A DNA stretch of 64,000 bases from assembly GCF_026686735.1 (NCBI RefSeq), contig NZ_CP113432.1:1860001-1924000 (forward strand). The letters run 5' to 3'. The notes under the pieces were generated by a model. That model was not told the DNA's origin. It searched no databases and saw nothing but the letters and a program-made list of their open reading frames with translations. Positions 36,045 through 64,000 of this stretch are shown in pieces. Both the position numbers and the translations under genes were made by a program. Each line of letters opens with the position of its first letter. The first letter of the stretch is position 1. The stretch comes from Pseudomonas triclosanedens (lineage in GTDB: Bacteria > Pseudomonadota > Gammaproteobacteria > Pseudomonadales > Pseudomonadaceae).

Positions 36045-36112
36045 ACATCAACCGGGCAGTGAGCATCGCCATGGGCAGCCCTGCAAATGGTCCGACTTCT
36101 GGAGCAAAGCAA

Positions 36113-36784
36113 ATGAGTTTCTCGAATCGTTGTATCAAGTTTCTGCTTTCATTCGCGATGTTGGCCGCAGGGCAGACTGCGTGGGCAGGCTGTAGTTCGG
36201 CCACGACATCTGCGTCCAGGACCTTCGGCAGTACCACCATATCCGTCGCTCGTGATGTGGCCCCGGGTACGGCGATTGGCCCCACCTATGGTCCCTACGA
36301 TGGCACAGCCGCCACCATAAGCTGCTCCGCAGGCACCACCTATTTGATGCTCAAGTTCACATCAACCATGACGGCGTCCGGCTATACCGATATCTACCAG
36401 ACCAACGTCCCAGGGATTGGCGTGAAGGCCTGGAGCGACTTCCAGAACACCGTCTATCTGGGGAATTCCCTGAAGTTCTGGTATTCCCCTGGCGCCGCCT
36501 TTTCGGGTGGTGCCTGGATCACCAATATTCACTTCCAGTTTTATGTCATCGGTCCGGTTTCCACAGGCCAGGTCACATTGCCAGCCCCGATTGCCGAGTC
36601 CTGGGCGAATAGCGTGTCGGGCAGCACTGCTGGCGGTACGCGTTACAACACGCTTACGATGACCGATGGGATCTCGATCAGCGCCAAGGCCTGCACCACG
36701 CCGAGCCTCACGGTGGACCTGGGTAAGCACAATTTATATTGGAAAAAAATCTTGAATGATTGCCCGGCAGCATTGCCTGATTGA
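36113..36784 (+). pseudogene. Fimbrial tip adhesin, truncated in the pilin domain
   Basis: 223 residues from ATG 36113 after a signal peptide (FLLSFAMLAAGQTAWAG). Residues ~22-195 look like a lectin-type adhesin domain with Cys27 and Cys67 for a disulfide. At ACTTPSLTVDLGKH the pilin domain begins, where family members continue for ~120 residues to a beta-strand motif with conserved glycine and tyrosine. Here the match stops and the frame ends 17 residues later in unrelated AT-richer sequence (NLYWKKILNDCPAALPD). Without the pilin domain it cannot be polymerised. It is the partner of the usher remnant. An ORF start at 35939 is out of the biological frame context and is ignored. Confidence 0.75.
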
Positions 36785-36986: not shown

Positions 36987-37685
36987 TCAGACCGTATCCA
37001 GAATATCCAGGCGATAGCCAAAGCTGTAGATAGTGCTCAGGCGGACGCCGTTTGTGGCTGTCAGATTCAACAGCCGGCGTAAGCGGGAAATATGTGTATC
37101 GAGCGTTCTTGAGTTGGCTTGCTCGGTTTGTGTCCAAATATTGTGCAGGATATGTGCCCGTGAAAGCAGTTCGCCTGCATGGCGGAAGAGAAACAATGCG
37201 AGCTCAAATTCGCGGGGTTTTAGTGTTACGGTGTCGCCATTGACTTGAATGCTGCGCGAAATGGGATCTATCAGATAGTGCTTGAGTTTCAGGGGAGTGT
37301 CGCCGATTTGCGTGCCCTGGGTTCGACGCAGCAGCGCTGCCACTCTGGCAAGTAATTCTCCCGTGCGCATGGGTTTGGCGAGGTAGTCATCGGCGCCCTC
37401 ATTGAGACCAAGAATAACGTCGGTTTCGGAGGTGCGGTTGGTGATGAACATGACGGGAGTTGCCATCTGCAGATCAGTTCGGATGACCCTCAGCACGTCC
37501 AGTCCGTTTATCGTAGGCATTTCCCAGTCGAGCAAGATCATGTCAAAGCTATCGCGGGCCAGGGCATGAATCAGCTCCGTGCCCTTTGCAAAAGCTATAA
37601 CTTCGTACCCTGAGAGCGACAGGGCCGTTTCAATAAGAGCCAATTGTTCGGCGTCATCATCCAGGGCGGCAATTCGCATATGCAT
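36987..37685 (-). CDS. OmpR/PhoB-family response regulator of the adhesin island
   Basis: 232 residues. Receiver domain 1-120 with acidic pocket ALDDDAEQ, phospho-acceptor Asp53 in MILLDWEMP, Thr/Ser and Lys of ITNRTSE and YLAKPMR. The DNA-binding winged helix (~130-230) has LKPREFELALFLFRHAGELLSRAHIL, RTLDTHISRLRRLL and STIYSFGYRL. It is downstream of the kinase gene by 29 bp on the same strand, with GGAG nine bases before its first ATG. I infer that it binds the 21-bp-period repeats upstream of the T1SS, adhesin and tolC genes. Confidence 0.92.
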   Translation of the reverse strand: MHMRIAALDDDAEQLALIETALSLSGYEVIAFAKGTELIHALARDSFDMILLDWEMPTINGLDVLRVIRTDLQMATPVMFITNRTSETDVILGLNEGADDYLAKPMRTGELLARVAALLRRTQGTQIGDTPLKLKHYLIDPISRSIQVNGDTVTLKPREFELALFLFRHAGELLSRAHILHNIWTQTEQANSRTLDTHISRLRRLLNLTATNGVRLSTIYSFGYRLDILDTV

Positions 37686-37714
37686 ATTTTCTTTCTCCTT
37701 GCTGTTCCGTTGTT

Positions 37715-39484
37715 CTATGAGTTACAGGGGGTTCTGAGCGGCAAGATCAGGCTGAACCGAGTTCCTACTCCGAGTGTACTTTCGATTGTGAGCTTTCCAC
37801 CATGTCGTTGCGCCACCTTGGATACGAACGCGAGGCCGAGCCCGAAACCATTGTGCCTTGAGCCTATTGGTGACCGCGAGAAGGGCTTGAGCAGGGCTTG
37901 CACCTGGTGCTGCGCCAGGCCCGGTCCCTGGTCGATGACATTGATTTGCCACGAATCATTCGATTGAGTTACTTGGCAAACGATCTCGGTATTGGGTGGG
38001 CTGGCCTTGATGGCATTGTCCAGCAGATTGGCGAGAGCTCGATGTAATAGCGCGGTATCGGCAAGGACTTCCCCCTCATCTGGCCGGTCGAGTTTAATGT
38101 CGATTCGGCAGGCTTGGGCTATTGACCACGCCTGATCTATCACTTCATAAAGAATGGAATCTAACTGACAGGGGGAGAGGTGGATCTCGCCTTCCTGTGC
38201 TTTGGACAGGAGCAGGAAGGATTCAGCCAGTTGCAGCGTTCTGCGAGCGTTATTCTCAACGCGACGTATGAATTCTTCGGGCTCGACTGCATCCGGATTT
38301 ACGCGCAGCAGTTCAATGAGCGTAAGTGTCGAAGCCTGAGGTGCGCGCATGTCATGGGTGATGAATCGGAGGGCTTCGTCACGCTCGGCTTGCGCCTGAC
38401 GCAATCCGCTGATGTCGGTAAATATGATGACATATTCATCATCATGGGTAATGGATACGGTTTCGTGCAGGCGCGTCATGCGCAATAAAAGTGATCGCTC
38501 TCCATCGTTGCATTCAATGCAGTTCTGCTCGTGCGCGATTATTCCCAGTCCCAGTTTTCCAAATACCGAATCTCCCGCCAGGGTACGCAATCCCTTAAGT
38601 AGCGAGGAGGCTTTTCTTTCGCATAAATCAGACGGCGTGTTGACCTGAAAATAGCGGGCAGCCGCTCGATTGGCCAATATCACGTTACTGAGTGCATCAC
38701 ATATGAGCGTAGGGTCTGGAATTGCTTGCAGGGCATCGTCAAGAAACTTTCTGTAATTGTGGAGCTGTGCCGTGCGCTCTGTTATTTGCTCCTCAAGGGA
38801 GTGGTTCAGCTCTCTGAGTTGAGCCTGGACTTCGCATGATTCGCATAAATCGGGGACATAGGGCTGAGTCTGCCGATGAAGAGTTAGCAGCCGCGTGAAC
38901 AGCATGGCCAATCCGAGCATGGCCACGGGTAATGCACCAAGGTTCTGTGCTGTAACCGGTTCGATCCAGCCAAGTCGCGTGGCTGCAACGCTCCCCAGGT
39001 ACAGTGCCAGGGTGGTCAGCACCACCGTATGGCCAGGAAGCGGGGCGCGGTGCGCCGCGATTAGCGTCAGGATGCCGAAGCCGACGAAATACACAGCACT
39101 GATGCACAGAGCGGCCAGCACGCTCAATTGATGGGTGGCGCTTAAGCCAATTTCTAGCGTCGCCACCAGCAAGCTGAGCCTTAGCGCCCAGCGGTGCAGA
39201 TTGCCCGACGCAGATGTCGCGCCGGTCATCCCCATCATCACCAGCGTCAACGCAGTTGCCACCAATACCACCTGCAGGAAAGGGGCATTCGCCTCGCCGA
39301 TCTGCAATACGCCACGGAGCCCGAACGCCACGCCCCCGAAGCCATAGGCCAGCGCAAACGACAGTAGCCAGTACCAGCGATGCACGCGCCAGGCGCTAAA
39401 GAACAGCGTCCCGGTTAGCGCCAGTGTTGACGCGATGGCACACCCAAGGGGGTCGGTGGTTGGGAGGAACTCCACGAAACTCAA
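37715..39484 (-). CDS. Membrane sensor histidine kinase
   Basis: 589 residues. N-terminal membrane domain of about seven helices (residues ~10-205), a cytoplasmic Cys-containing linker and coiled coil (CESCEVQAQLRELNHSLEEQITERTAQLHNYRKFLDDAL), a PAS-like domain (~250-360), then the transmitter: H-box RFITHDMRAPQAS with His377, N-box LANLLDNAIKAS, G1 DQGPGLAQ, G2 GFGLGLAFV. A membrane 7TM sensor without a periplasmic domain suggests it senses a signal within the membrane or near it. Pair with the downstream regulator. GC content is lower than in the core genes, consistent with horizontal origin. Confidence 0.9.
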   Translation of the reverse strand: MSFVEFLPTTDPLGCAIASTLALTGTLFFSAWRVHRWYWLLSFALAYGFGGVAFGLRGVLQIGEANAPFLQVVLVATALTLVMMGMTGATSASGNLHRWALRLSLLVATLEIGLSATHQLSVLAALCISAVYFVGFGILTLIAAHRAPLPGHTVVLTTLALYLGSVAATRLGWIEPVTAQNLGALPVAMLGLAMLFTRLLTLHRQTQPYVPDLCESCEVQAQLRELNHSLEEQITERTAQLHNYRKFLDDALQAIPDPTLICDALSNVILANRAAARYFQVNTPSDLCERKASSLLKGLRTLAGDSVFGKLGLGIIAHEQNCIECNDGERSLLLRMTRLHETVSITHDDEYVIIFTDISGLRQAQAERDEALRFITHDMRAPQASTLTLIELLRVNPDAVEPEEFIRRVENNARRTLQLAESFLLLSKAQEGEIHLSPCQLDSILYEVIDQAWSIAQACRIDIKLDRPDEGEVLADTALLHRALANLLDNAIKASPPNTEIVCQVTQSNDSWQINVIDQGPGLAQHQVQALLKPFSRSPIGSRHNGFGLGLAFVSKVAQRHGGKLTIESTLGVGTRFSLILPLRTPCNS

Positions 39485-39795
39485 TCCTCATGCTCTGTTT
39501 GGCTTGTGCGGTTTGGGTTGTGGTGTTCAGGGGAGAGATGGTTGCGGCGCATGAGATTCAGCCTTTTGGGGCTATTTCACTATTCATGCTGGCCATTGTT
39601 TGTTCTAAAAAATTGGTTGGGAAGAGGGTAATAACGGGAGTTTGGAATTGTTCAGATTCTGCTGATAAATGTTTGCAATGCCCGCCTTGGCCAAAGCGCT
39701 CCGCGTAGCAACAATTTAAGCATCTCCTACGCAGGACTCTTGAAATTGAGTACTGCAAATTCACCGATTCATAAGTTTTTAGCGGGGCCAGAAAC
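39485..39795. promoter_or_regulatory. Divergent promoter region, kinase genes versus T1SS operon
   Basis: 311 bp, AT-rich, with no credible gene. It holds two direct repeats of 21-bp period at 39644-39685 and a single related ATTGTTTG element at 39595-39602. The start of a plus-strand ORF at 39424 is a shadow. Confidence 0.7.
39644..39685 (+). repeat. Two 21-bp-spaced operator-like repeats upstream of the T1SS operon
   Basis: GGAATTGTTCAGATTCTG starts at 39644 and ATAAATGTTTGCAATG at 39665, exactly 21 bp apart. The first matches the adhesin-promoter repeat GGAATTGTTTGGAATCTG at 15 of 18 bases; the second keeps ATGTTTGC-AT. Likely bound by the island response regulator. Confidence 0.65.
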
Positions 39796-42024
39796 ATGAA
39801 CATGACTACTACGGGCGATGCGGGCGATAAGTCGTCGCCGGCATCACCCAACGGAAACAAGCGCCAGGGTGATTGGTTGTTACGGCGCCTGTCTCTGGTT
39901 GCGAGGCAGGATGGATTGCTGTCGCGGGCGCAGATTGAAGCTTTGCTCAATCAGGCTCCGGACGATGCCATGCCTGCGGCGGCTTGGCGTGCCTGGATCG
40001 TTATGGTGTCCGACGCCTGCAAGCTCCAGATGAGTGGGTGGAGTGATGAGCCGGACGTGGCAATGCTGCCTATGTTGATGCTCACGCCTGAAGGTGAAAT
40101 GGGCGTGGTCCTGGCGCGTGGCGCCGACGGCAGTTGGCGCATAGATGGGCCGGATGGCTTGGGCTATACGCACGACTGGCAGCCAGGAGCGCAGTTCACC
40201 AAGGTTGAAGTATCCGGCGTTGCGCCGGCAAGGCGCAGTGCAAAAGCGTTTTTCAAGGAAACTTTTTTCGCTGATCGACGCTGGGTTTTTTACGCCGCTC
40301 TGGTTGCAGTGCTGGGTAACATCCTGGCGCTGGCTACGTCGCTGTACTCCATGCAGGTCTACGACCGGGTTATCCCGACCCAGGGGTTTTCCACCCTGAT
40401 CGTACTGTCGGTGGGGGCGTTGATTGCCATTGTGCTGGAACTGCTGCTCAAGCTGGCCCGTTCGGCGATTGTCAATGAAGCGTTGTCGCATATCGACATT
40501 AACTTGTCTTCAGGGATCTTCGAGCGCCTGCTCAACCTGCGCATGGATCAGTTCCCTAGCCAGGTTGGCAGTCTTTCTGGGCAGTTGCGCAGCTACGAGA
40601 CCATCCGGGCATTCAATTCCGCCATCTCTCTGTTTGCCTGTTCGGATGCGCCGTTCGCGCTCTTCTTTCTCGCGGTGATCTTTTGGGTCGGTGGTCCTTT
40701 CGTAGCGGCGGTGCCTCTGGTCTTTCTGATACTGGCCGTTGTGGTGGGGCAGTTGTCTCGCAGTCGCATTGAACGGGCAGCGATGGCCGGTACCGGCGCC
40801 GGTAACCGCAAGCTCGGCCTTCTTGTTGAAGCGGTAAGCGGTGCTGAGGCGCTCAAGGCTGGCGGCGGAGGGTGGCAAGTGCTCACTCGCTGGAACGATC
40901 TATCGCGTGAATCCGTACGGCAGGATGCTGATATTCGCCACCTGAGTGAAACCTCCCAGTATCTGAGTGCTGCGCTCCAGCAGTTGTCCTACATATGTAT
41001 GGTTGCCACAGGCGCCTATGTGGCTACCACGGGCAGCATCACCAGTGGTGCGGTAGTTGCCTGCTCGATTTTGTCCGGGCGCGTACTCACTCCGGTCAAC
41101 ATGATCCCGGGGTTGCTGGTGCAATGGGCAAACGCCAAGGCCGCACACAAGAGCCTTGAGGCCATCTTTGCCCTGCGGTGTGACAACCATGAAGTCGAGC
41201 GCCCGTTGGTGCCGCAGCGGATTGAGGGGCGCCTTTCCCTCCAGGATGTGGCATTCACCTATGGCCCGGAAGGTCAGGGAATTGCAATCCCTCGTCTGGA
41301 AATCGCTCCTGGCGAGAGGGTGGCCATTCTTGGCGCCATCGGCGCAGGTAAAAGCACAGTGCTGCGCTTGCTCGGCGGTTTCTACTGTCCGCAGCAAGGG
41401 AGGGTGTTGCTCGATGGATTGGATATTCAACAGATCAGCCGTGATCGCTTGAGCGAAGTCCTCGGTTATCTGCCGCAGCATGTGTCGTTGTTTGGCGGAA
41501 CCTTGCGCGACAACCTGCTGCTTGGCCTGTCTTCGAAAGACGACGAGCAAGTGCTGCGAGCGGCGCAGGCCACTGGCCTCCAGGCTCTGATTGCGGGGCA
41601 CCCCAAAGGGCTGGATCTGCCTATCGCCGAAGGCGGTGCGGGCTTGTCTGGCGGACAGAAGCAATTGGTGGCACTCACCCGTTTGATGCTGTCGGCACCC
41701 AAGGTTTGGCTGTTGGATGAGCCCACTGCCTGCATGGACTCGCAAACCGAGGAGCGCTGCATTGTTGCGCTTGAGCAGGCGATGGCGGATGGGGCTACGG
41801 CAGTGCTGGTGACTCACAAGCACGCATTGTTGCGCCTGGTAGAGCGGATTGTGGTTTTGACCCCGCAGGGCGTGGTTCTGGATGGTGCGCGCGATGTTGT
41901 ATTGCGGCAATTGCAAGGAGGTGTGGTGGTAAGCCCCGGTGGCAACCCCTCGAACAGGCCGCAGCCTGGTAATCCCTCCGCGCCGCGTTCTGCGCCTTCG
42001 GCGCAGGTAATGACTACGAGGTAA
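39796..42024 (+). CDS. Type I secretion ABC protein (LapB-like)
   Basis: 742 residues, inner-membrane exporter. N-terminal ~130 residues form a C39-peptidase-like domain; the catalytic cysteine is absent, as in the non-proteolytic CLD of RTX/adhesin exporters. Six membrane helices lie at ~160-450 (YAALVAVLGNILALATSLYS, LIVLSVGALIAIVLELLL, and others). NBD: Walker A GAIGAGKST at 513-521, signature LSGGQKQ, Walker B VWLLDEPTACMD, H-loop VTHKH. The C-terminus is Pro/Ser rich. With the adaptor and TolC it exports the giant adhesin. The downstream adaptor start overlaps its stop (TAATG). Confidence 0.93.
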   Translation: MNMTTTGDAGDKSSPASPNGNKRQGDWLLRRLSLVARQDGLLSRAQIEALLNQAPDDAMPAAAWRAWIVMVSDACKLQMSGWSDEPDVAMLPMLMLTPEGEMGVVLARGADGSWRIDGPDGLGYTHDWQPGAQFTKVEVSGVAPARRSAKAFFKETFFADRRWVFYAALVAVLGNILALATSLYSMQVYDRVIPTQGFSTLIVLSVGALIAIVLELLLKLARSAIVNEALSHIDINLSSGIFERLLNLRMDQFPSQVGSLSGQLRSYETIRAFNSAISLFACSDAPFALFFLAVIFWVGGPFVAAVPLVFLILAVVVGQLSRSRIERAAMAGTGAGNRKLGLLVEAVSGAEALKAGGGGWQVLTRWNDLSRESVRQDADIRHLSETSQYLSAALQQLSYICMVATGAYVATTGSITSGAVVACSILSGRVLTPVNMIPGLLVQWANAKAAHKSLEAIFALRCDNHEVERPLVPQRIEGRLSLQDVAFTYGPEGQGIAIPRLEIAPGERVAILGAIGAGKSTVLRLLGGFYCPQQGRVLLDGLDIQQISRDRLSEVLGYLPQHVSLFGGTLRDNLLLGLSSKDDEQVLRAAQATGLQALIAGHPKGLDLPIAEGGAGLSGGQKQLVALTRLMLSAPKVWLLDEPTACMDSQTEERCIVALEQAMADGATAVLVTHKHALLRLVERIVVLTPQGVVLDGARDVVLRQLQGGVVVSPGGNPSNRPQPGNPSAPRSAPSAQVMTTR

Positions 42025-43184
42025 TGAACATGCAACGTCTCTCAAAAACTACGCGCGGGTCGCGCAGGGCGGCAGTTTTCATTGTGCTCGCCTCCCTGGG
42101 GCTGATCGGCACCATCAGTTTGTCTGCCTGGGTGCGTATCGACGAAATTGTGCATGCCAGCGGTCGCATTGTGGCTGTTGCGGGAACTCAAGTCATTCAG
42201 CCGGCTGACATGGGAATTATCTCCGCGGTCCTGGTCAAGGAAGGTGACCGCGTCGAGAAGGGGCAGTTGTTGGTTGAACTGCAACGAGCGCGTGCACAGG
42301 CCTCCAACGACGATAGCCAGGGCAAAGTCATAGCATTGAAGGCGACATTGGCTCGGCTGCAGGCAGAGGTGTTCTCCCGTCCTCTGCAGTTCCCTCCCGA
42401 AGTGAATGCCTACCCGGAATTCGTACGTAACCAGACTGAACTCTTCACCCTTCGGCAGCGTGCACTCAAGGAAGCGGAGGCCGCCCTGGAGAAGAACCTG
42501 CGCCCGGTACGTGCTGAACTCGCTCTCATGCGTCCGTTGCTGAACAGCAAAGATGTCGGCAAATCCGACGTGTTGCGCCTGGAGCACCAGCAGGCCGAGC
42601 TGGAGGGGCAGCTCGTCAATCTGCACAACAAGTATTTCCAGGATGCCCAGACGGAAATGACCAAGGCTGAAGAGGACCTCAATACTCGCGAGCAGGAGCT
42701 CGCCGACCGCCACGAGCTACTCGAACACACCAGACTGGTTGCCCCAATGAGCGGGGTGGTGCGCAACATCGACATTAATACCGTCGGCGCGAGTGTTCGC
42801 CCGGGGGATGTGATCATGCAAATTGTGCCCGGTGATGGTGAATTGGTGTTTGAGGCAAAGCTGCGGCCTGCCGACGTGGCATATGTGCGTAAAGGCGCAC
42901 CGGCCAGCGTTAAGCTGGACGCCTATGACTACAGCATCTTCGGTGTATTGAAAGGCCAGGTCACGTTCGTAAGTCCTGACGCCCTCACCGAAAAGACAGC
43001 ACGTGGCGAAGAAGTTTATTACCGCATTCGCATTAGCCTCAAAGGCAGTGATCGCATCCCCGGCACGGATCTGCAACCCGGTATTACTGGCCAGGTTGAT
43101 GTGCGCACGGGTAATCGCACGGTTCTGAACTATTTGATCAAGCCAATTACCAAAACAATATCTGAGGCGATGACTGAACGCTGA
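42024..43184 (+). CDS. HlyD-family T1SS membrane-fusion adaptor
   Basis: 386 residues. One N-terminal membrane anchor (AAVFIVLASLGLIGTISLSAW, ~15-35), a lipoyl-like hairpin (VIQPADMGIISAVLVKEGDRVEKGQLLVEL), a long coiled-coil stalk (~95-245, FVRNQTELFTLRQRALKEAEAALEKN, QAELEGQLVNLHNKYFQDAQTEMTKAEEDL) and the C-terminal beta-barrel with RLVAPMSGVVRNIDINTVGASVRPGDVIMQIVP. It bridges the ABC protein and TolC. Start shares bases with the ABC gene stop. Confidence 0.93.
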   Translation: MNMQRLSKTTRGSRRAAVFIVLASLGLIGTISLSAWVRIDEIVHASGRIVAVAGTQVIQPADMGIISAVLVKEGDRVEKGQLLVELQRARAQASNDDSQGKVIALKATLARLQAEVFSRPLQFPPEVNAYPEFVRNQTELFTLRQRALKEAEAALEKNLRPVRAELALMRPLLNSKDVGKSDVLRLEHQQAELEGQLVNLHNKYFQDAQTEMTKAEEDLNTREQELADRHELLEHTRLVAPMSGVVRNIDINTVGASVRPGDVIMQIVPGDGELVFEAKLRPADVAYVRKGAPASVKLDAYDYSIFGVLKGQVTFVSPDALTEKTARGEEVYYRIRISLKGSDRIPGTDLQPGITGQVDVRTGNRTVLNYLIKPITKTISEAMTER

Positions 43185-43251
43185 GTTAGTCGCTGTTCAG
43201 TGAGAAATAAGAGCATGAATTAAAATTTAAACTCAATTCAACCCATCATAT

Positions 43252-43288
43252 AGGCCGCAGCGGATGTCCCGTTTTGCGGCCTTTTTTG
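43252..43288 (+). terminator. Rho-independent terminator of the T1SS operon
   Basis: AGGCCGCA pairs with TTGCGGCCT around a 15-nt loop; six Ts follow. It separates the T1SS operon from the adhesin gene, which therefore has its own promoter. Confidence 0.85.
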
Positions 43289-43728
43289 TTTCTGCTGAAG
43301 TACTGGCTTTTTCTTGAGGCTGTCTGCGCCGGGTGTTGGCGCGGATATTTATAGCGCTGACCGTTCCTCCGTGGCTGGCAGGGGCCTACCTGCCAGGTGG
43401 CGCGGGCTTCGCTACCGGCCAGTAAAGAAGTCGCCGCGCGCCTGCAGATTGCAATGAGCGGAACCAGGCGCTGGGAGTGCCGACGGCATAGCCCTCCTTG
43501 CCGCCTGGCAGACGGACAGGGGCTGCCATGATCCCTTGGCAGCGCTGCCGGCAGACGTTGTCGCTTGGCTTGGTCGCAACGCCTGCGTTACCTGCTGCGC
43601 CAGGGCCAGCCCACAAACGGCAGCCTGAAACTGCCGCATTAAAGCCTGCGCCAATCATCCCTGCCTGGCTCGATACCCGCTGGAAGAACTTCTGAATCCT
43701 CATGCATTGGCGCGGGCAAGCCGCGTTT
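43289..43728. other. Intergenic region upstream of adhesin, no confident gene
   Basis: 440 bp of GC-rich sequence. Six-frame reading shows only short frames (plus strand ~43498-43695; minus strand 180 codons across 43386-43928, which also covers the operator repeats). Neither has a ribosome site or a recognisable product. May be a decayed remnant. Confidence 0.5.
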
Positions 43729-43791
43729 GGAATTGTTTGGAATCTGTTAGGGATTGTTTGAAATCCGTTAGGGATTGTTTGCGATTTTCCT
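43729..43791 (+). repeat. Three tandem 21-bp repeats upstream of the adhesin
   Basis: Units start at 43729, 43750 and 43771, each opening with GG(A/G)ATTGTTTG; units 1 and 2 also share the AATC-GTTA tail. A 21-bp period is two DNA turns, so proteins bound would stack on one face. Same core recurs at the T1SS and tolC promoters. They lie ~270 bp before the adhesin start, so a promoter downstream is expected between 43792 and 44050. Confidence 0.75.
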
Positions 43792-44062
43792 ATTGGGTAG
43801 CCGTATTGGGTGGGAGAGCATATGGCTATCTTGGATTTCAGGGAGTTATCGGTGCAATGGCGCACTTTAGTGCTCTTGCAAATCCTGTGGGTTCGATCAT
43901 TCGGGTGCTTGTCCAGAGCCTCTGGCAAGCCCCATTCGAACTCTTAAATTTTTCGGAAAATTCCTAGGCCCTTTTGAGAGGGGAGGGTGATGTCCTCACC
44001 TTTCCCTCAATTAAAGAATTAGTCGTTGCGTTTTGAATTCTGGTTTCTATAGAGGTATGAAA

Positions 44063-47000
44063 ATGACTCTGCTCCTTCGTAAGCATCTGGCCAACGGCCA
44101 TACTGAAACTGTCCAACTTGTTGCAGACAAGTCTGGGAAGATCGTGAAGATCAAGGCCGAGCCGGGCGCGCATTACGACGTGATTGACTCTGCGACCGGC
44201 AATCCGCCGGAGCATCTGTCGGTTAAGCGTGGTGGGAAGGCGCGGAAAGACCTGCTGGTCGAAGTCGACGGCCAGCAAGTGGTGAGTCTGGAAGGGTTCT
44301 ACAGTGATGACACAGTAGCGACCCCCTGTTACTTCGATACCGCGCCGGGTACTACTGAGAACTTCAGCATTTCGCCGTTGACTGCGGAAGGCCCTGAGGG
44401 AGGCCTGATTCCCCCCGCTTCATCAGTTCTCGGGGTAGGCGACATCCCGCTGTGGGCGGTAGGGCTGGCCGGCGCGGGTGTTGTTGGCCTGGCAGCGGCT
44501 GGCGGTGGCGGCGGTGGCGGCGGTTCTTCGTCGAAGCGCTCTGCTCCGTCGAACACGCCCTCGAGCAATCTGCCGTCCGCTCCGTCGGCCAAGATCGGTG
44601 ATCAGGACGGCGACGGTAAGCAGGACGTGTCGGGTACCGGTAAGCCGGGTGACACCATCACTGTATCCTGGCCGGACGGCAGCACCAGTACTGATGTTGT
44701 GGACGGTAATGGCCGCTGGCGGATTGACGTACCGCGAACCATGCACACCAATGGCCCTGTATCCGTCACCGAGACGGACTCTTCGGGCAAGGTGAGTCGG
44801 CCGACCAATGCCGGCAATATCGACGTAACCCCTCCGGCAGCGCCCGGCCTGGCGTTGGAAAGCGACACCGGCGCCAACGCCAGTGACGGCATCACCAGCA
44901 ACGGCACCATCAACGTCACCGGTCTGGAAGCCGGCGCTTCCTGGCAATACTCCCTCGATGGCGGCACCACCTGGCTGAATGGCTCGGGTACCCAGATCAC
45001 CGGTCTTGCCGAAGGCGCGAACACTGTTCAGGTCCGGCAGACCGACGCTGCGGGCAATGTCTCGCCGGTTGCCACGCTGAACGTCACCGTTGACACGGCT
45101 GCGGCAGCACCCGGCCTGGCACTGGAAAGCGACACCGGCGTGAGCGCCAGTGACGGCATCACCAGCAACGGCACCATCAACGTCACCGGTCTGGAAGCCG
45201 GCGCTTCCTGGCAATACTCCCTCGATGGCGGCACCACCTGGCTGGATGGCTCGGGTACCCAGATCACCGGTCTTGCCGAAGGCGCGAACACTGTTCAGGT
45301 CCGGCAGACCGACGCTGCGGGCAATGTCTCGCCGGTTGCTACGCTGAATGTCACCGTCGACACAGCGGCTCCGGCAGCGCCCAGCCTGGCGCTGGAAAGC
45401 GACACCGGCGCGAGCGCCAGTGACGGCATCACCAGCAACGGCACCATCAACGTCACCGGTCTGGAAGCCGGCGCTTCCTGGCAATACTCCCTCGATGGCG
45501 GCACCACCTGGGTGGATGGCTCGGGTACCCAGATCACCGGTCTTGCCGAAGGCGCGAACACTGTTCAGGTCCGGCAGACCGACGCTGCGGGCAATGTCTC
45601 GCCGGTTGCCACGCTGAATGTCACCGTCGACACGGCTGCCGCTGCACCCGGCCTGGCACTGGAAAGCGACACCGGCATGAGCGCCAGTGACGGCATCACC
45701 AGCGACGGCACCATCAACGTCACCGGTCTGGAAGCCGGCGCTTCCTGGCAATACTCTCTCGATGGCGGCACCACCTGGCTGAATGGCTCGGGTACCCAGA
45801 TCAGCGGTCTTGCCGAAGGCGCGAACACTGTTCAGGTCCGGCAGACCGACGCTGCGGGCAATGTCTCGCCGGTCGGCACGCTGAACGTCACCGTTGACAC
45901 GGCTGCGGCAGCACCCGGCCTGGCACTGGAAAGCGACACCGGCGTGAGCGCCAGTGACGGCATCACCAGCAACGGCACCATCAACGTCACCGGTCTGGAA
46001 GCCGGCGCTTCCTGGCAGTACTCCCTCGATGGCGGCACCACCTGGCTGAATGGCACGGGTACCCAGATCACCGGTCTTGCCGAAGGCGCGACCACTGTTC
46101 AGGTCCGGCAGACCGACGCTGCGGGCAATGTCTCGCCGGTTGCCACGCTGAATGTCACCGTCGACACAGCGGCTCCGGCAGCGCCCAGCCTGGCGCTGGA
46201 AAGCGACACCGGCGTGAGCGCCAGTGACAGCATCACCAGCAACGGCACCATCAACATCACCGGTCTGGAAACCGGCGCTTCCTGGCAGTACTCCCTCGAT
46301 GGCGGCACCACCTGGCTGGATGGCTCGGGTACCCAGATCACCGGTCTTGCCGATGGTGTATACGCTATTCAGGTCAGAGGGCTCGATACTGCGGGCAATG
46401 TCTCGCCGGTTGCCACGCTGAACGTCACCGTTGACACGGCTGCGGCAGCACCCGGCCTGGCACTGGAAAGCGACACCGGCGTGAGCGCCAGTGACGGCAT
46501 CACCAGCAACGGCACCATCAACATCACCGGTCTGGAAACCGGCGCTTCCTGGCAATACTCCCTCGATGGCGGCACCACCTGGCTGGATGGCACGGGTACC
46601 CAGATCACCGGTCTTGCCGAAGGCGCGACCACTGTTCAGGTCCGGCAGACCGACGCTGCGGGCAATGTCTCGCCGGTTGCCACGCTGAATGTCACCGTCG
46701 ACACAGCGGCTCCGGCAGCGCCCAGCCTGGCGCTGGAAAGCGACACCGGCGTGAGCGCCAGTGACAGCATCACCAGCAACGGCACCATCAACATCACCGG
46801 TCTGGAAACCGGCGCTTCCTGGCAGTACTCCCTCGATGGCGGCACCACCTGGCTGGATGGCTCGGGTACCCAGATCACCGGTCTTGCCGATGGTGTATAC
46901 GCTATTCAGGTCAGAGGGCTCGATACTGCGGGCAATGTCTCGCCGGTTGCCACGCTGAACGTCACCGTTGACACGGCTGCGGCAGCACCCGGCCTGGCAC

Positions 47001-58000: not shown

Positions 58001-58090
58001 CCCTCGGTTCCGCTTCGGCGGATAGGGGAAGGCGCACAACCCGGACGTTTGGGTTGTGCGCGGTTCCCTGGTCAGGAAGGCGACTTTTCC

Positions 58091-58125
58091 ACGGGGCGTC
58101 GGCGCAAGCCGGTGCCCCGTTTTTC
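58091..58125 (+). terminator. Rho-independent terminator after the adhesin
   Basis: ACGGGGC...GTCGGC, GCAA loop, GCCGGT...GCCCCGT with a near-complete stem, followed by five Ts. A further perfect 11-bp inverted repeat (GCGCACAACCC, 58032-58042 with 58051-58061) just upstream lacks Ts. Confidence 0.85.
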
Positions 58126-58520
58126 ATTTATGTCATTGCAGGGATTGGCCGCTTGGCCCGCGCCTGGCTGCCGGATTCCCGCACGGAACGATCAGGCGGG
58201 GAATCACCTGGCTCACCCAGCGTATGAATCGGTAGGGATCAAACCCGCCCGCAGGGGGGATTGCCCTCGGCAGCGTAAGGTGGCGGGGCAGCCGGTTCAG
58301 CGTCCGCTCCCGCCACATGGGGCGCACCCAGCGCCATCATCTGCATCTTGCTCAGATCACCAAGGGCCTCATTGAGGCTCAGGGTATGGCTGTTCAACTT
58401 TCGCCCCCGAAAGAGCAGCAAAAGTACAACTTCGCCATATGAAGTTATAGGTTCGCTTGCAATCCATTGATTGTTAAAGGGGGCTTCGTTCTATCGACAC
58501 GAAGGTCACCGGCGGCGTTT
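58126..58520. other. Intergenic stretch, no confident gene
   Basis: About 395 bp. Two short minus-strand frames (58133-58327 and 58239-58421) have no ribosome site and no recognised product. GC drops toward 58440-58520 where the tolC promoter would be. Confidence 0.5.
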
Positions 58521-58562
58521 GCAATTGTTTGCTTAGTGGCAGCAATTGTTGACTGTTGCCTT
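58521..58562 (+). repeat. Two 21-bp-spaced operator-like repeats upstream of tolC
   Basis: GCAATTGTTTGC at 58521 and GCAATTGTTGAC at 58542, exactly 21 bp apart, about 90 bp before the start codon. Same ATTGTTTG core and period as at the adhesin and T1SS promoters. Confidence 0.7.
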
Positions 58563-58633
58563 ATTGGGCGACGGAACTCGATACGGGACAATTTGCATGA
58601 ATTGGCTATCCGTTGTTTACGAGGGATATGAAT

Positions 58634-59968
58634 ATGAAAGTCTTCAAAGCCGACCCGTGTCGACTCCGTCCGATTAATAGGTTGCCGTTGCGTCCGATCG
58701 TATTGGCAGTGTTATTGATCGCCAGTGGTACTGGCAATGCAACTGTCAATACTTTCAGCGATACCAGTGCCGAGAGTCTGACGCTGCAATCACTGCTGGA
58801 CGAAACGCTGCGCAGCCATCCGTCGTTGGGGGCCGCGCGTGTCGAAGTGAAGGCGGCGGGCCAGGACGTCGAGGCCGCGAAGCTCCAGCGCCTGCCGTCA
58901 CTCACTGTGGGCGCGGAGCGCGGCACGGACTCGAATGAAAGCCGGTCGTCCGTGCAGTTGAAGCAGACGATATGGGATGGCGGACGGGTCCGCGCGGGCA
59001 TCGACTCTGCTTTGGTCGGCGAGCAGGTTGCCCGCGAATCAATCCGCAGCCAATGGTGGAGCCTGGCGCAACAGATCATCGATGCGTGGCAGCAGCTCCT
59101 GGCCTTTGCAGGCAAGCGCGATGTGGCCCACGCAACGATTGCCAAGCTCGAAGAGTTGCAGGCAAGCATGCAAAGACGTGTGGCCACTGGCGCCTCGCCC
59201 GAGATCGATCTCGACCTGGTGCACGCGCGGCTATTGCAGGCGCAGACGGAGTTGCAGGAGGCTCAAGTGGGCTTGCGTACTACGTTGGCGACATTGGCGC
59301 AGCTCAGCGGGGTGTTGGAGCTCACGCAGTTGCCGATCGATTCCATCCAGCCTGAACGTTTGCCGGTACAGGACCTGAAAATGGCAGCCGCGCAGTATGC
59401 CGACACCGATTGGCCCGCGATGGCGGCCAAGTCCCCTCTGGTTGTCACTGCTCACTATGCGGTGAGTCGGGCTGAGCAGCAGATGAAGGCCAGGCAAGCC
59501 GAGCGCTGGCCCGAGGTGTTTGTGCGCCTGGACCAGCCGCTGGGAGGCAATGGCAGCAACAATGGCGACCGTTCAATGGCTGCCTTCATCGGGTTGAGCT
59601 ACACCCCCGGCAATGGATTCTCTTCGTTTTCTGCGGCGAAGGCGGCAGCCACCCGCGTCGGGGCCGCCGAGGAAAATGTCGGTACGGCCATTCGCGAGAT
59701 GAGAAAACTCCAGGACGCGCAGGTGGAAACCTTCTTTGGTACCCAGGCCCGGCTCGAGTCGCTGCGTGCTTCGGTCGACAGCAGTGCTTCGATAGTCAGC
59801 TCTTATGAGCGGCAATTCATTGCCGGCCGAAAGTCGTGGCAGGACGTTATGAATGCGGTGCGTGACCTGGCTCAAAATGAATATGCCTGGCAAGACGCGA
59901 ATGCCCGGGTGGCGGGTTCGCTTTATCAGTTGAAACTTCTCTCCGGGCAGCTCGATAAAAACTTCTAA
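58634..59968 (+). CDS. TolC-family outer-membrane protein of the T1SS
   Basis: 444 residues from ATG 58634, eight bases after GAGGG (an ATG at 58628 is too close). Signal peptide ends near GTGNATVNT. TolC/OEP features: SLLDETLRSHPSLGAARVEVKAAGQDVEAAKLQRLPSL, long helical hairpins, and the conserved Tyr-rich and helical C-terminal half (RVGAAEENVGTAIREMRKLQDAQVETFFGTQARLESL, SSYERQFIAGRKSWQDVMNAVRDLAQNEYAW). It forms the outer-membrane channel for the adhesin exporter. First gene of an operon with the hybrid kinase (10-bp gap) and HD-GYP regulator, an unusual partnership. Confidence 0.92.
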   Translation: MKVFKADPCRLRPINRLPLRPIVLAVLLIASGTGNATVNTFSDTSAESLTLQSLLDETLRSHPSLGAARVEVKAAGQDVEAAKLQRLPSLTVGAERGTDSNESRSSVQLKQTIWDGGRVRAGIDSALVGEQVARESIRSQWWSLAQQIIDAWQQLLAFAGKRDVAHATIAKLEELQASMQRRVATGASPEIDLDLVHARLLQAQTELQEAQVGLRTTLATLAQLSGVLELTQLPIDSIQPERLPVQDLKMAAAQYADTDWPAMAAKSPLVVTAHYAVSRAEQQMKARQAERWPEVFVRLDQPLGGNGSNNGDRSMAAFIGLSYTPGNGFSSFSAAKAAATRVGAAEENVGTAIREMRKLQDAQVETFFGTQARLESLRASVDSSASIVSSYERQFIAGRKSWQDVMNAVRDLAQNEYAWQDANARVAGSLYQLKLLSGQLDKNF

Positions 59969-59978
59969 AGAGGCAGTC

Positions 59979-62777
59979 ATGGCCAATAGAGAGTTCCAGT
60001 TGATGCTTCGCCAGTTTGTAGATGGACAGTCGCGTAAGGGAATGCTTGCCTCGATCGAGCAGCCGGTTCTTAAACGCATGTTCATATACGGCATGACAAT
60101 GATTACGTGCATTGTGGCGGTGTATGCGGTGTTCTTCCTGTATAACGGAATGCCGCATCACTTGCTCAATGTACTGACGAACTTTGCAGGCATTGCCGTG
60201 GCGGCATTCATTGCATGGCGCTGGGGGAACTATCGGTGTGCGCTGCTGTTCATGAACAGCTCGGCATTTGTCATGGTAACGATTAATGCCGTTTATCAGG
60301 GTGGCGTTGGTTCACCCGCGTTCTGGTGGATGTCCGTCTTGCCCTTCGCGACCGTGCTGGGTGGTTCGATGCGGGCAGGTATTGTGCAGGCCTGTGTGTT
60401 GGTCGTTTTCGTGGCCTTGCACGCCTTGGGCGCGATGGAAGGCTGGCTGCCAGCTCTGGAGTTGGCGAAGCAGCCGGGTTTGCACAAGTCCCTGTCGGTC
60501 GTCTTTTCTACGCTGTACTTCCTGCTGTTCCTGATTCTGAGTTTGCGCTGGAAGTCGCTGTTGACCCAGGCGTTGTACGACGCCCTGAAGATGGCGCACG
60601 AAGCAACGGAGGCCAAGGCGCGCTTCCTGGCCAATATGAGCCACGAAATCCGTACTCCGATGAATGCGATTCACGGCCTGGGTCATTTGCTTGGAAGAAC
60701 GAAGCTTGACGACTGCCAGCGCGACCACGTGCGCAAGATCATGCAGGCCAGCCAGCACCTGTTGGGCATCATCAATGACATCCTGGATTACTCGAAGATC
60801 GAGGCGGGTTGCCTGAAGGTTGAAAAGGTACCGTTCGATTTGCCGAATATGCTCCATGAGGTGCGGGACCTGCTTGCCGAGCGCGCACAGGCTAAAGGCC
60901 TGCACCTGACACTTGAGGTCGATGCGGCAATCCCTCACGGGCTGATTGGCGACTCGCTGCGCCTTTCTCAGATACTCCTCAACCTTGGGGATAATGCCGT
61001 CAAGTTCACTCGCAGCGGCAGGGTAAGCATGACGGTGGAGTGCCTGCGTGCAGACGATAAGGACGTACTGCTGCGCTTCTCTGTGCTCGACACGGGGATT
61101 GGTCTGAGCGACGCGCAGAAAACCAGGCTGTTCCAGGATTTCACCCAGGCCGATGAATCGACGACCCGCCAGTACGGCGGAACGGGGTTGGGGCTGGCGA
61201 TTTCAAAGCGCCTTGTCGAGCTGATGGGCGGCGAAATCGGTGTGAACAGCGAGTTCGGCAAGGGTGCGACGTTCTGGTTCACTTTGCCGTTGCGCCGCGA
61301 CGGCGCGCCACAGATCTGGCAGGCGGCGACACAGGCCAATCGCCGTGTGCTGGTGATCGATAACGACGCGCACGATCGCCAGGCTCTGTGCCAGGCATTG
61401 AGAAGCCTTGGCGCGGAGCCATGCGAGGCGGCTAACGGCGAGGCCGCACTAGCCGCCTTGCAGACGGCTGTGAAGGTGGGTACGCCTTACGAGGCTGTGC
61501 TGGTCGACTGGCGCATGAGCGAAATGGACGGGCTGCAGGTGATTTCGGCCATTAAGACCCTGGCGCTGACGCCAGCGCCGCGCCTGGCTCTGGTGACTTC
61601 CTATGCGCATGAGCAGTTGCAGGCGCTTGATCTGGGCGCCGACACCGTGCTGTTGAAGCCAGTGCCAGCCGACTTGCTGGGGGCGGCGTTATGGCCTCGC
61701 ACCGAGGAGGCGCCTGCGCCGGCTGCACCTGCCTCCTCTTCGGCCAGTAGCTTGAAAGGCGCGCGCGTACTGGTGGCGGAAGACAATCTTCTGAACCGGC
61801 ACGTACTGTTGCAGTTGTTGGCGGAGTTCGATGTGCTGGCAGAGTTTGCCGACAACGGCTGCCAGGCGCTCCAGATGGCGAGCCAGAAAAGCTACGACGC
61901 CATATTGATGGACATTCAAATGCCGGAGATGGATGGCGTCGAGGCCACCATTCGACTGCGTGAGCGGCCCGAATTCGCGCAGTTGCCTATCATCGCGCTC
62001 ACCGCAAACGTGATGGAGGATGAGCGTCAACGCTGCCTGGCGGCGGGCATGAATGATTTCCTCGCAAAACCTGTTGAGCCATACACCCTGCAGCAGACCT
62101 TGCGGCACTGGATCAGCAATGAGCGCGGTGCCGATGCGGCGGAGAAGACACTCGCATCCCGGGAGCAGACCGAACCTTGGCCAATCGTGATCCAGGGCCT
62201 GGATATGGATACGGGGCTGCGCTATGTCATGGGCAAATACGATACCTACCTGACATTTGTGCAAGAGTTCGCTCACGACCAGGCTGGAGCGGCTGAGCAG
62301 GTGGCGCAAGCGCTTAGCCGCGGTGACTGGCAGAAGGCAGGCAGGATGGTGCACATCTGCAAGGGGCTCGCGGCAACGATCGGCGCCAGTGCCTGTGCCC
62401 AGGTCGCCGCTGAACTGGAGCAGGCATTGCGCAAGAAGCACGGCGACCCTGAATTGCAGGCACGCTTCGAAGCTGAGTTGGCCTCTGTGGTGAGTTCAAT
62501 TCGCTCGGCAATGCCGGCAGCGCCGCCCGGGGCGGAGAGGGAGGCTGCAACCGGCGTTGATTCAGACTCTCAGCGAGCCGTGGCGGCAATGCGCGAAATG
62601 CTGCGGAGCAACGACATGACGGCCAGATGGGTTTGGGACGATAACGCGGCGGTGTTCCTGGCAATGTTCGGGCAACGTTTTGATGAGTTGCAGCAGGCTG
62701 TTCACGAGGTCAATTACCCCTTGGCTTTGCGGATACTGGACGAAATTACGCGCCTGAACCCAGCGTGGGATAAGTGA
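59979..62777 (+). CDS. Hybrid sensor histidine kinase with two receivers and HPt
   Basis: 932 residues. About five to six membrane helices at 35-205 (membrane sensor, no large periplasmic domain). Transmitter: H-box FLANMSHEIRTPMNAI with His222, N-box LNLGDNAVKFTRSG, G boxes DTGIGLSD and GGTGLGLAIS. Receiver 1 (~335-455) with Asp510 region actually in VLVDWRMSEMDG, and receiver 2 with Asp645 in ILMDIQMPEMDG; receiver 1 shows VLVIDNDAHDR at its start. HPt domain near 735-830 with His792 in MVHICKGLAATIG. A full BvgS/BarA-type phosphorelay. The next gene, one base after its stop, is an HD-GYP regulator and the likely output. Confidence 0.92.
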   Translation: MANREFQLMLRQFVDGQSRKGMLASIEQPVLKRMFIYGMTMITCIVAVYAVFFLYNGMPHHLLNVLTNFAGIAVAAFIAWRWGNYRCALLFMNSSAFVMVTINAVYQGGVGSPAFWWMSVLPFATVLGGSMRAGIVQACVLVVFVALHALGAMEGWLPALELAKQPGLHKSLSVVFSTLYFLLFLILSLRWKSLLTQALYDALKMAHEATEAKARFLANMSHEIRTPMNAIHGLGHLLGRTKLDDCQRDHVRKIMQASQHLLGIINDILDYSKIEAGCLKVEKVPFDLPNMLHEVRDLLAERAQAKGLHLTLEVDAAIPHGLIGDSLRLSQILLNLGDNAVKFTRSGRVSMTVECLRADDKDVLLRFSVLDTGIGLSDAQKTRLFQDFTQADESTTRQYGGTGLGLAISKRLVELMGGEIGVNSEFGKGATFWFTLPLRRDGAPQIWQAATQANRRVLVIDNDAHDRQALCQALRSLGAEPCEAANGEAALAALQTAVKVGTPYEAVLVDWRMSEMDGLQVISAIKTLALTPAPRLALVTSYAHEQLQALDLGADTVLLKPVPADLLGAALWPRTEEAPAPAAPASSSASSLKGARVLVAEDNLLNRHVLLQLLAEFDVLAEFADNGCQALQMASQKSYDAILMDIQMPEMDGVEATIRLRERPEFAQLPIIALTANVMEDERQRCLAAGMNDFLAKPVEPYTLQQTLRHWISNERGADAAEKTLASREQTEPWPIVIQGLDMDTGLRYVMGKYDTYLTFVQEFAHDQAGAAEQVAQALSRGDWQKAGRMVHICKGLAATIGASACAQVAAELEQALRKKHGDPELQARFEAELASVVSSIRSAMPAAPPGAEREAATGVDSDSQRAVAAMREMLRSNDMTARWVWDDNAAVFLAMFGQRFDELQQAVHEVNYPLALRILDEITRLNPAWDK

Positions 62778-62778
62778 A

Positions 62779-63930
62779 ATGAGTACGCATCACGAACGAG
62801 GTAGGCAGACCGTCCTGGTAGTGGATGATGTTGCACGAAACCTCACGCTGATAAGCCATATATTGAGGCCGCATTACACCGTCAAGGCGGCAACGTGCGG
62901 CGAGCAGGCTCTGCACCTGGCGGTTGTAGTTCGCCCGGATCTGATTCTGCTGGATGTCGATATGCCAGGCATGGACGGGTACGCCGTTTGCCGGCGGTTG
63001 AAGGCCGATGCGGCTACGCGAGATATCCCGGTGATTTTCCTCACGGCCATGACCGGGCCGCTCGAAGAGACGGCGGGTTTTGACGCCGGGGCCGTGGATT
63101 ATATTTCCAAGCCGGTATTGGCCGAGATCATGCTCTCGCGCGTCAAGGCGCATCTGACGGTCGGCGTCATGGCCGGAATGTACCGTGACAAGGCCTCTTT
63201 TCTCGAAAGGGAGGTGGCACGGCGCACTGAGCAGATCGCCCGGGTGCAGGAGGTCACGCTGTTGATTACTTCGTCGCTGGCTGAGGCGCGTGACAATGAA
63301 ACAGGCACCCACATTTTGCGTACGCAACACTATGTGAAATGCCTGGCCGAGCATCTGCGGGCTCATCCGCGCTTTGCTGACCAGCTCACCGGCGAAACAA
63401 TCGAGGCGATCTTCAAGTCGGCGCCGTTGCACGATATTGGCAAGGTGGGGATTCCAGACCGCATTCTCTTGTTGCCTGGCCGACTTTCGCACCGGGAGAT
63501 GGAGATCATGAAAACCCATACCACGATTGGCCGCGATGCAATCGAGCGGGCAGAACAGCGTCTGGGTTACTCAATGCCTTTTTTGCGAGTTGCCAAGGAG
63601 ATGGCCTATTGTCATCACGAGAGGTGGGATGGCAGTGGCTACCCGCAGGGCCTGGCCGGCGATGCTATTCCAATCGCTGCCCGGTTGATGGCGCTTGCCG
63701 ATGTGTATGACGCATTGATCAGCAAGCGGGTTTACAAGCCCGCCATGTCGCATGATGACGCGACTCTCATCATCCTGGCGGGGCGGGGACAGCAATTCGA
63801 TCCCGATGTGGTGGATGCCTTCGAGGCGGTGCAGGTTGAGTTTCGGGATATCTCCATGCGGTTTGCCGATAGCCAGCAGGATTTCGACGAGGAGTTGCTT
63901 CGGCTTGATTGGGTGGCGGAGTCGCCATGA
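62779..63930 (+). CDS. Response regulator with HD-GYP c-di-GMP phosphodiesterase domain
   Basis: 383 residues. Receiver domain 1-125 with phospho-acceptor Asp59 in LILLDVDMPGMDG; then the HD-GYP domain with HDIGK at 218-222 and HHERWDGSGYPQGLAGDAIP from 279, all catalytic residues intact, so it should hydrolyse c-di-GMP. Start lies one base after the hybrid kinase stop and is co-translated. Pairing phosphorelay output to c-di-GMP turnover in the operon of the adhesin's own outer-membrane channel suggests control of adhesion or biofilm dispersal. Right edge of the window; 70 bp past it show no gene. Confidence 0.93.
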   Translation: MSTHHERGRQTVLVVDDVARNLTLISHILRPHYTVKAATCGEQALHLAVVVRPDLILLDVDMPGMDGYAVCRRLKADAATRDIPVIFLTAMTGPLEETAGFDAGAVDYISKPVLAEIMLSRVKAHLTVGVMAGMYRDKASFLEREVARRTEQIARVQEVTLLITSSLAEARDNETGTHILRTQHYVKCLAEHLRAHPRFADQLTGETIEAIFKSAPLHDIGKVGIPDRILLLPGRLSHREMEIMKTHTTIGRDAIERAEQRLGYSMPFLRVAKEMAYCHHERWDGSGYPQGLAGDAIPIAARLMALADVYDALISKRVYKPAMSHDDATLIILAGRGQQFDPDVVDAFEAVQVEFRDISMRFADSQQDFDEELLRLDWVAESP

Positions 63931-64000
63931 CTGCGTGGCCGCATCATTCCTCTATGTGTGGTCGGCCAATGAGTTCTGGGGGGCCTTTAGCGGTAACAAC

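Follow-up and report, generated by a model that had tools for sequence, protein, structure and literature searches.

Can a giant adhesin carry its own control with it? This question is raised by a block of eight genes at positions 36987 to 63930 of a 64,000-nucleotide stretch of the Pseudomonas triclosanedens genome (contig NZ_CP113432.1, positions 1,860,001 to 1,924,000). We refer to the whole stretch as the window and use its numbering. The block encodes two-component proteins, a type I secretion system (T1SS), a giant adhesin with immunoglobulin-like (Ig) repeats, and a hybrid kinase next to an HD-GYP protein, the latter predicted to hydrolyse cyclic di-GMP (c-di-GMP). We consider it fairly probable that the locus is a horizontally acquired, self-regulated adhesin island with its own kinases, regulator, exporter and HD-GYP relay. 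The parts are familiar and the combination is unusual. The strongest new point is a promoter motif that ties the units together.

Gene content and a shared promoter motif

The block genes, and a further kinase gene beside them, are the following.

36987-37685, minus strand: OmpR/PhoB-type response regulator (Response_reg and Trans_reg_C)
37715-39484, minus strand: sensor kinase 1, with several transmembrane segments and PAS, HisKA and HATPase domains (domain profiles)
39796-42024, plus strand: T1SS ABC exporter, LssB/LapB-like (ABC_membrane and ABC_tran)
42024-43184, plus strand: T1SS periplasmic adaptor of the HlyD family (TIGR01843)
44063-58000, plus strand: giant Ig-repeat adhesin of 4,645 residues (Big_13 and Big_6 repeats)
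58613-59968, plus strand: TolC-family outer-membrane channel (OEP, two stretches)
59979-62777, plus strand: hybrid kinase with HisKA, HATPase, two receiver domains and HPt (domain profiles)
62779-63930, plus strand: receiver-HD-GYP protein (domain profiles, complete catalytic motifs)
63952-65727, minus strand: sensor kinase 2, a paralogue of kinase 1 (C1:1923952-1925727; its 3' end, 63952-64000, is inside the window)

All eight block genes are open, the 14-kb adhesin gene included, and they lie where an earlier note on this DNA had placed them, with the domains it had given. The regulator has PhoB as its best NCBIfam match at 165.6 bits, below the cut-off of 296.2, and the ABC exporter scores 621 bits against TIGR03375, below the cut-off of 693.1; the HlyD adaptor reaches 282.1 bits against TIGR01843, above the cut-off of 208.65. 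The ABC-HlyD-TolC set adjoins a giant open reading frame (ORF) of tandem Ig repeats, which is the layout of BapA/SiiE-like T1SS loci. The TolC, hybrid kinase and HD-GYP genes very likely form one operon, because the gaps between them are only 10 bases (TolC to hybrid kinase) and 1 base (hybrid kinase to HD-GYP).

The earlier note counted two sensor kinases. Both are present, and the count is one short, as a third kinase gene, convergent with the HD-GYP gene, lies 21 bases past it. The product of this gene, kinase 2, has 591 residues and is 67% identical to kinase 1 over 589 positions. Identity is 58/65 (89%) in the HisKA region and 119/205 (58%) in the membrane part. Since the HisKA regions are conserved and the membrane parts diverged, the parts that choose the partner appear to have been kept while the sensing parts drifted, which suggests that the two kinases are two inputs to one regulator. 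Kinase 1 had been described as a 7TM protein; it is indeed a membrane kinase, and the number seven is not settled by a simple hydropathy scan, which gives four strong segments in kinase 1 and a more crowded pattern in kinase 2.

Three arrays of a shared motif lie upstream of the units of the block.

43725-43787, plus strand: three 21-bp tandem repeats upstream of the adhesin gene (repeat search of the 878 bases before it)
39640-39680, plus strand: candidate regulator-binding array with imperfect half-sites, in the divergent gap between the kinase 1 and ABC genes (matrix 21.7 bits)
58517-58556, plus strand: candidate regulator-binding array with imperfect half-sites, upstream of tolC (matrix 15.24 bits)

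The repeats before the adhesin gene can be read as six direct half-sites GTTxGxxAT spaced 10, 11, 10, 11 and 10 bp. Tandem direct half-sites are the layout typical of OmpR/PhoB-family regulators; a spacing of about 10-11 bp before the target is clear at the adhesin gene and imperfect at the ABC and TolC genes. A weight matrix was trained on the three adhesin copies alone and run over both strands of 79.9 kb, that is, the window joined with the next 15.9 kb of the genome. Outside the training site it ranked 39640 first, 58517 second and 65898, before kinase 2, third (12.57 bits), followed by a match at 38714 inside the kinase 1 gene (12.55 bits). The best match in 357,406 bases elsewhere in the genome and in congeners was 14.28 bits, and four matches exceeded 13. 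Markov shuffles of the three gaps reached the observed scores in 1/1000 (ABC), 20/1000 (TolC) and 23/1000 (kinase 2) cases. By score, the ABC site is well clear of the other sequence, the TolC site is just above it, and the kinase 2 site does not rise above it.

The core 12-mer TTTGSAATTGTT occurs four times in 6,245,384 bases (6.245 Mb), three of these in the same gaps, and its reversed control does not occur. The fourth exact copy, at C1:6215096, is within the first codons of an MFS transporter gene and looks unrelated. A 20-mer pattern with up to three mismatches was found at five places, among them three before the adhesin gene and one before the ABC gene. We set aside a 15-mer, GTTTGSAATTGTTNG: with up to three mismatches allowed, the whole window has 9 copies against 4.7 expected, a number that 5 of 100 shuffles reach and that is not significant. 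The regulon argument is carried by the matrix test and the exact 12-mer. Rfam gave no match at gathering score on 32000-64000, so no riboswitch of a curated family is present there. The shared motif supports a common regulator for the units, and to judge from these sites the block looks like one self-regulated regulon. The natural candidate for the motif-binding protein would be the OmpR/PhoB-type regulator encoded in the block itself.

Insertion and rarity of the gene set

We compared the extended window with stretches from six of the 24 other genomes of the genus. In five of the six (G008, G154, G107, G076 and G024) a mere 0.38-0.82 kb separates the flank that ends at about 34740 from the one that starts at 66152; for the sixth (G121), the right-hand flank was matched and the left flank was not found. 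The insertion is about 31.4 kb long, from about 34740 to 66152 in window-based coordinates, and holds, from left to right, half a fimbrial usher, a fimbrial adhesin gene, the block and the second kinase copy. The unit drawn in the earlier note contains the block genes and is too small, as the insertion spans this wider range. The G+C content is 53-61% for the regulator, kinase, exporter, TolC and HD-GYP genes, and 65% and 67% in the flanks. The block is part of an insertion and seems to have been acquired horizontally.

By the searches made, the gene set is rare. The kinases are found in 1 of 25 genus genomes (E 1e-60) and the block TolC in 1 of 248 family genomes (E 1e-25), in both cases the genome itself; up to 53 candidates were scored per genome for the kinases in the genus, and up to six in the TolC family search and in the search with the whole hybrid kinase. 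A wider TolC search, scoring up to four candidates per genome, matched six genomes out of 369 of the class at E 1e-20; one of them is the genome itself, and the other five show 27-31% identity. For the first 205 residues of the hybrid kinase, one relative besides itself was found (69% identical, E 1e-5) in about 5.8 billion proteins, by a word-based search that requires shared five-residue words. With the whole hybrid kinase, all listed matches in 148 family genomes beyond its own full-length gene begin at residue 161 or later. Viral contigs gave no relative of this kinase; on plasmids there were at least 5,000 matching records, none covering more than 80%, and among the matches listed the start is at residue 198 or later. 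For the exporter, a relative with 76% identity was found on a short contig, and its next relative is at 62%.

The exporter loci compared are the best 80 of at least 575 confirmed ones; a good number of them are short contigs and the queries for neighbours were single block proteins, so absence from them is weak evidence. TolC lies upstream of the ABC gene in 77 of these loci (in pieces in L164), after HlyD in one (L144), and was not found in two (L146, L168). The order in the window, with TolC after the adhesin, is unusual. Hybrid kinases above 40 bits occur in four loci (L107, L118, L122 and L166), OmpR-type regulators in nine, and a partial HD-GYP-like match in one (L164, 55 bits). The earlier note had proposed a search for co-occurrence, and a hybrid kinase together with an HD-GYP protein was found beside the exporter in 0/80 loci of these best relatives. 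Signalling genes beside such exporters are known terrain, and the exact set was not met elsewhere in the sample. For example, an OmpR-type regulator and a CHASE2 kinase are present in L161; in L118:3946-7156, on a contig filed as Limnohabitans, TolC-ABC-HlyD is preceded by a YfiR-like gene and a hybrid kinase with CHASE8; and a T1SS locus of Herbaspirillum aquaticum (L104:7980-8894) has an EAL-domain-like stretch (45 bits) between the TolC and ABC genes.

The left end of the insertion carries fimbrial genes.

34740-36784, plus strand: left end of the insertion, fimbrial genes (junction with genus-conserved sequence at about 34740)
34932-36044, plus strand: C-terminal half of a fimbrial usher, 5' half absent (usher profile positions 296-549 and PapC_C)
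35939-36784, plus strand: MrkD-like fimbrial adhesin gene (MrkDrd 22.3 bits, below the cut-off of 27)

As only the C-terminal half of the usher remains at the junction, we suggest that the island came in as a severed piece of a donor's chromosome. The usher remnant is joined directly to the end of a genus-conserved gene for a small membrane protein, which we take to be ynfA-like. No tRNA was found in the 64-kb window (the scan ended at 64000), and no integrase among the genes typed, which did not include small ORFs.

The adhesin, LapG and the HD-GYP relay

The adhesin ORF opens with a TTG at 44033. The ATG at 44063 has a better-spaced AGAGG ahead of it, as read by eye, and is most likely the start, which gives 4,645 residues and agrees with the length in the earlier note. 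A short N-terminal domain is followed by a hydrophobic stretch, a poly-Gly linker and the Big_13/Big_6 repeats, of which 35 are Big_13 stretches. The retention module NF033682, which the earlier note had reported as lacking, gave no match in this adhesin, and two native LapA-like adhesins of the same genome, serving as positive controls, scored 128.6 and 128.7 bits. The RTX pattern GG.G.D.x is found 0 times in the window adhesin and 7 and 4 times in the native ones. By the retention-module profile, the window adhesin is not of the LapA type. The native adhesins have DPTQ followed by TAAG. In the window adhesin an AAAG stands at residue 144, counted from the ATG at 44063, in an Ala/Gly run after the hydrophobic stretch and ahead of the poly-Gly linker, with no DP just before it. 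In LapG substrates a DP turn and a targeting helix precede the [T/A/P]AAG cleavage site (PMC13090378). Control of the window adhesin by LapG appears unlikely, because the retention module is not matched and the AAAG has neither of these features.

No lapD or lapG is found among the block genes. The earlier note had seen none either, which holds for the window and not for the genome, where the check that it proposed found two lapD-lapG pairs and two retention-module adhesins. The two LapG proteins score 347.6 and 381.0 bits against NF045674 (cut-off 320), each accompanied by a LapD. One pair shares its locus with TolC-, ABC- and HlyD-type genes and with a 3,104-residue adhesin in which both the retention module and TAAG are present. 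The other pair is located outside the window, 12 kb from its end and 18 kb from the block's adhesin gene. In 22 of the other 24 genomes of the genus, the best match is a LapG at least 69% identical to that of this nearby pair, and the lapDG sequence of the pair is conserved in all six congener stretches, with G154 cut short by the stretch end. At the DNA level, the stretch with lapD and lapG is 76% identical to its match in P. aeruginosa, and in both an RND pump gene lies beside it. The second retention-module adhesin, also with TAAG, is encoded at C1:4462580-4468792 (L179). TolC, ABC and HlyD genes lie beside it, up to 4474155, and neither of the genome's two lapG genes is at this locus.

The HD-GYP protein has complete motifs (HDIGK at 218, HTTIG at 247, HHERWDGSGYP at 279, NETGTH and ADVYDAL) and is apparently an active enzyme, predicted to be a c-di-GMP phosphodiesterase. 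Its best solved relative is chain 4r8z, 'Cyclic di-GMP phosphodiesterase' (217/218 residues, 233 bits), presumably PA4781. The hybrid kinase has about five transmembrane segments, SHEIRTP at 221 in HisKA, VDWRMSEMDG at 509 and MDIQMPEMDG at 644 in the two receivers, and HICKG at 792 in HPt, so these domains retain the residues expected of them. The structure 3m6m, of the RpfC receiver, matches only the receiver of the hybrid kinase, at 50.8 bits. RpfC is likewise a hybrid kinase with HPt, and the hybrid kinase/HD-GYP pair is RpfC/RpfG-like in its predicted domain layout. The adhesin system had been credited with its own phosphorelay to a c-di-GMP phosphodiesterase. The layout is right, whereas an action on the adhesin cannot be read from the sequence, and the presumed functional link between HD-GYP protein and adhesin is the weakest point of our reading.

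Proposed mechanism, alternatives and related systems

In brief, we suggest that the two paralogous membrane kinases would phosphorylate the single OmpR/PhoB-type regulator, which would bind the 10/11-bp tandem direct repeats found ahead of three units: kinase/ABC, adhesin and TolC. The sign of this regulation is presumably positive, so that export machinery and adhesin would be switched on together. The adhesin would exit via ABC-HlyD-TolC and would be held or shed without LapG. The TolC transcript would also yield the RpfC/RpfG-like hybrid kinase and the receiver-HD-GYP protein. With the signal present, the relay would pass phosphate to the HD-GYP protein, which would then hydrolyse c-di-GMP; an effect on adhesion would arise as this activity couples adhesin deployment to a drop in the general c-di-GMP pool.

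In LapA-type systems the adhesin is kept on the surface at high c-di-GMP. Here, an adhesin without a LapG module and a relay that would lower c-di-GMP, and is apparently active, seem to be joined through a common regulon and operon, and the cell has two LapA-type adhesins besides. Two questions become testable here: whether a single messenger can keep adhesins of one class in place and have those of another put out under the reverse condition, and whether the regulation of an adhesin system travels with it from species to species. From the layout one may speculate further that the relay lowers c-di-GMP, host LapD then lets LapG cut the native retention-module adhesins, and the island adhesin stays or is newly deployed. 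We regard such an exchange as quite improbable; if true, an invading adhesin system would strip its competitors from the surface. In Paracoccus denitrificans, BapA abundance and biofilm were reported to go up once c-di-GMP synthesis was removed (PMC5588039).

Several observations weigh against a self-regulated island. The margin at the TolC site is thin (15.2 versus 14.3 bits elsewhere, with 20/1000 shuffles), and the kinase 2 site, level with the match inside the kinase 1 gene and below four matches in other sequence, may have been inherited with the kinase 1 promoter at duplication. Neither the ABC array nor the TolC array has perfect half-sites, the TolC site is missed by the looser 20-mer pattern with three mismatches, and the 12-mer TTTGSAATTGTT was picked after inspecting the three gaps, which only the matrix test leaves out. 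A sigma-70 promoter scan of 39400-44200 found none where 2.1 were expected. The G+C content of the adhesin gene (65%) and of the usher piece (64%) is flank-like. Besides the HD-GYP protein itself, no known c-di-GMP receptor domain was found by Pfam in the block genes, so any effect of the HD-GYP protein on the adhesin would be indirect, and PA4781 prefers pGpG in vitro (PMC3774798).

The lack of such a receptor domain would fit an ordinary BapA-type T1SS locus in which hybrid kinase and HD-GYP protein are passengers acting on something else, as would the sporadic occurrence of hybrid kinases near such exporters (4/80) and of the pair in none (0/80). We hold this to be rather unlikely, as the gaps of 10 and 1 bases put both genes in the tolC operon, with the shared motif upstream. 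It is very unlikely that the adhesin is a LapG substrate under the LapD/LapG pairs of the genome, with the HD-GYP protein acting through LapD. Two such pairs exist, one of them 18 kb from the adhesin gene, and an AAAG is cut by LapG of V. cholerae in CraA (PMC6890996). However, NF033682 does not match where the native adhesins do, the AAAG has no DP turn or targeting helix before it (PMC13090378), and genus members that lack the island also have the nearby lapDG pair conserved. Scarcely any weight goes to the block being a decaying acquired fragment of little function: the left end keeps just the C-terminal usher half and the kinases occur in 0/24 congeners, yet the eight genes are open, the catalytic motifs are intact, and the kinase and ABC clusters have additional members on other contigs. 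We prefer the self-regulated island.

The earlier note did not recall such a combination as described. In titles and abstract openings of open-licence papers, no T1SS adhesin was found that has a hybrid kinase and an active HD-GYP protein of its own. Each ingredient taken singly has precedents in print. To our knowledge, the island OI-28 of enterohaemorrhagic Escherichia coli does not encode the response regulator RstA. This regulator controls the T1SS/RTX adhesins of OI-28, which differ from the block in being RTX adhesins and in that the excerpt available notes no c-di-GMP enzyme (PMC12758282). In P. aeruginosa, PprAB activates the giant adhesin BapA and its exporter BapBCD, with chaperone-usher fimbriae in the same regulon (PMC3510237). 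This is two-component control of a T1SS giant adhesin and its exporter, as we propose for the block; however, pprA and pprB (PA4293, PA4296) lie apart from bapABCD (PA1874-1877), and the bap operon, as outlined in that excerpt, has no HD-GYP gene. GGDEF genes near lapF and bapA were noted in the same paper (PMC3510237), so local c-di-GMP genes beside such adhesins have already been remarked on.

The Lap and Dvh systems also combine a T1SS giant adhesin with local c-di-GMP-related control, and DvhD of Desulfovibrio, a protein of an adhesin operon, carries an HD-GYP domain. Unlike the block, they use a retention module and a periplasmic protease, and the HD-GYP domain of DvhD is an inactive receptor with HD replaced by SQ, whereas the motifs of the block protein are complete (PMC6890996, PMC13090378). 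The block protein has a receiver and not a membrane sensor part, and no block gene is LapG-like, which does not fit control of the Dvh type. RpfG of Xanthomonas is a receiver-HD-GYP protein (PMC3609779). The RpfC/RpfG pair is similar to that of the block in that a sensor kinase is found next to such a protein. It differs in that the block kinase has a second receiver and that a TolC gene is linked to the pair in the block; no rpfF (crotonase) was found among the typed genes of the block or downstream of it. The domain order of the block receiver-HD-GYP protein equals that of PA4781 of P. aeruginosa, where phosphorylation of the receiver unmasks the phosphodiesterase (PMC3774798). In PA4781 a non-consensus Glu314 hinders c-di-GMP binding (PMC3774798), whereas the block protein has Ala at the aligned place by hand count.

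Some minor observations concern the adhesin and a similar locus. At E 1e-4, only two sequences related to the N-terminal domain of the adhesin were found, 35% and 33% identical to it, and one of them comes from Pelistega europaea. A single-sequence AlphaFold model of the first 176 residues has a mean pLDDT of 50 and was not used for a fold search. Two stretches, 51098-51502 and 53405-53866 (bounds by eye), are unlike the Ig repeats. The former is discoidin-like and a possible sugar-binding head, with a weak match at ORF residues 2413-2450 (25.3 bits, below the cut-off of 27.8); the latter was assigned to no family. Another Ig-like-repeat ORF, followed by TolC, ABC and HlyD genes, is located at L178 (G000:C1:2990904-2998422) and resembles the bapABCD order of P. 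aeruginosa.

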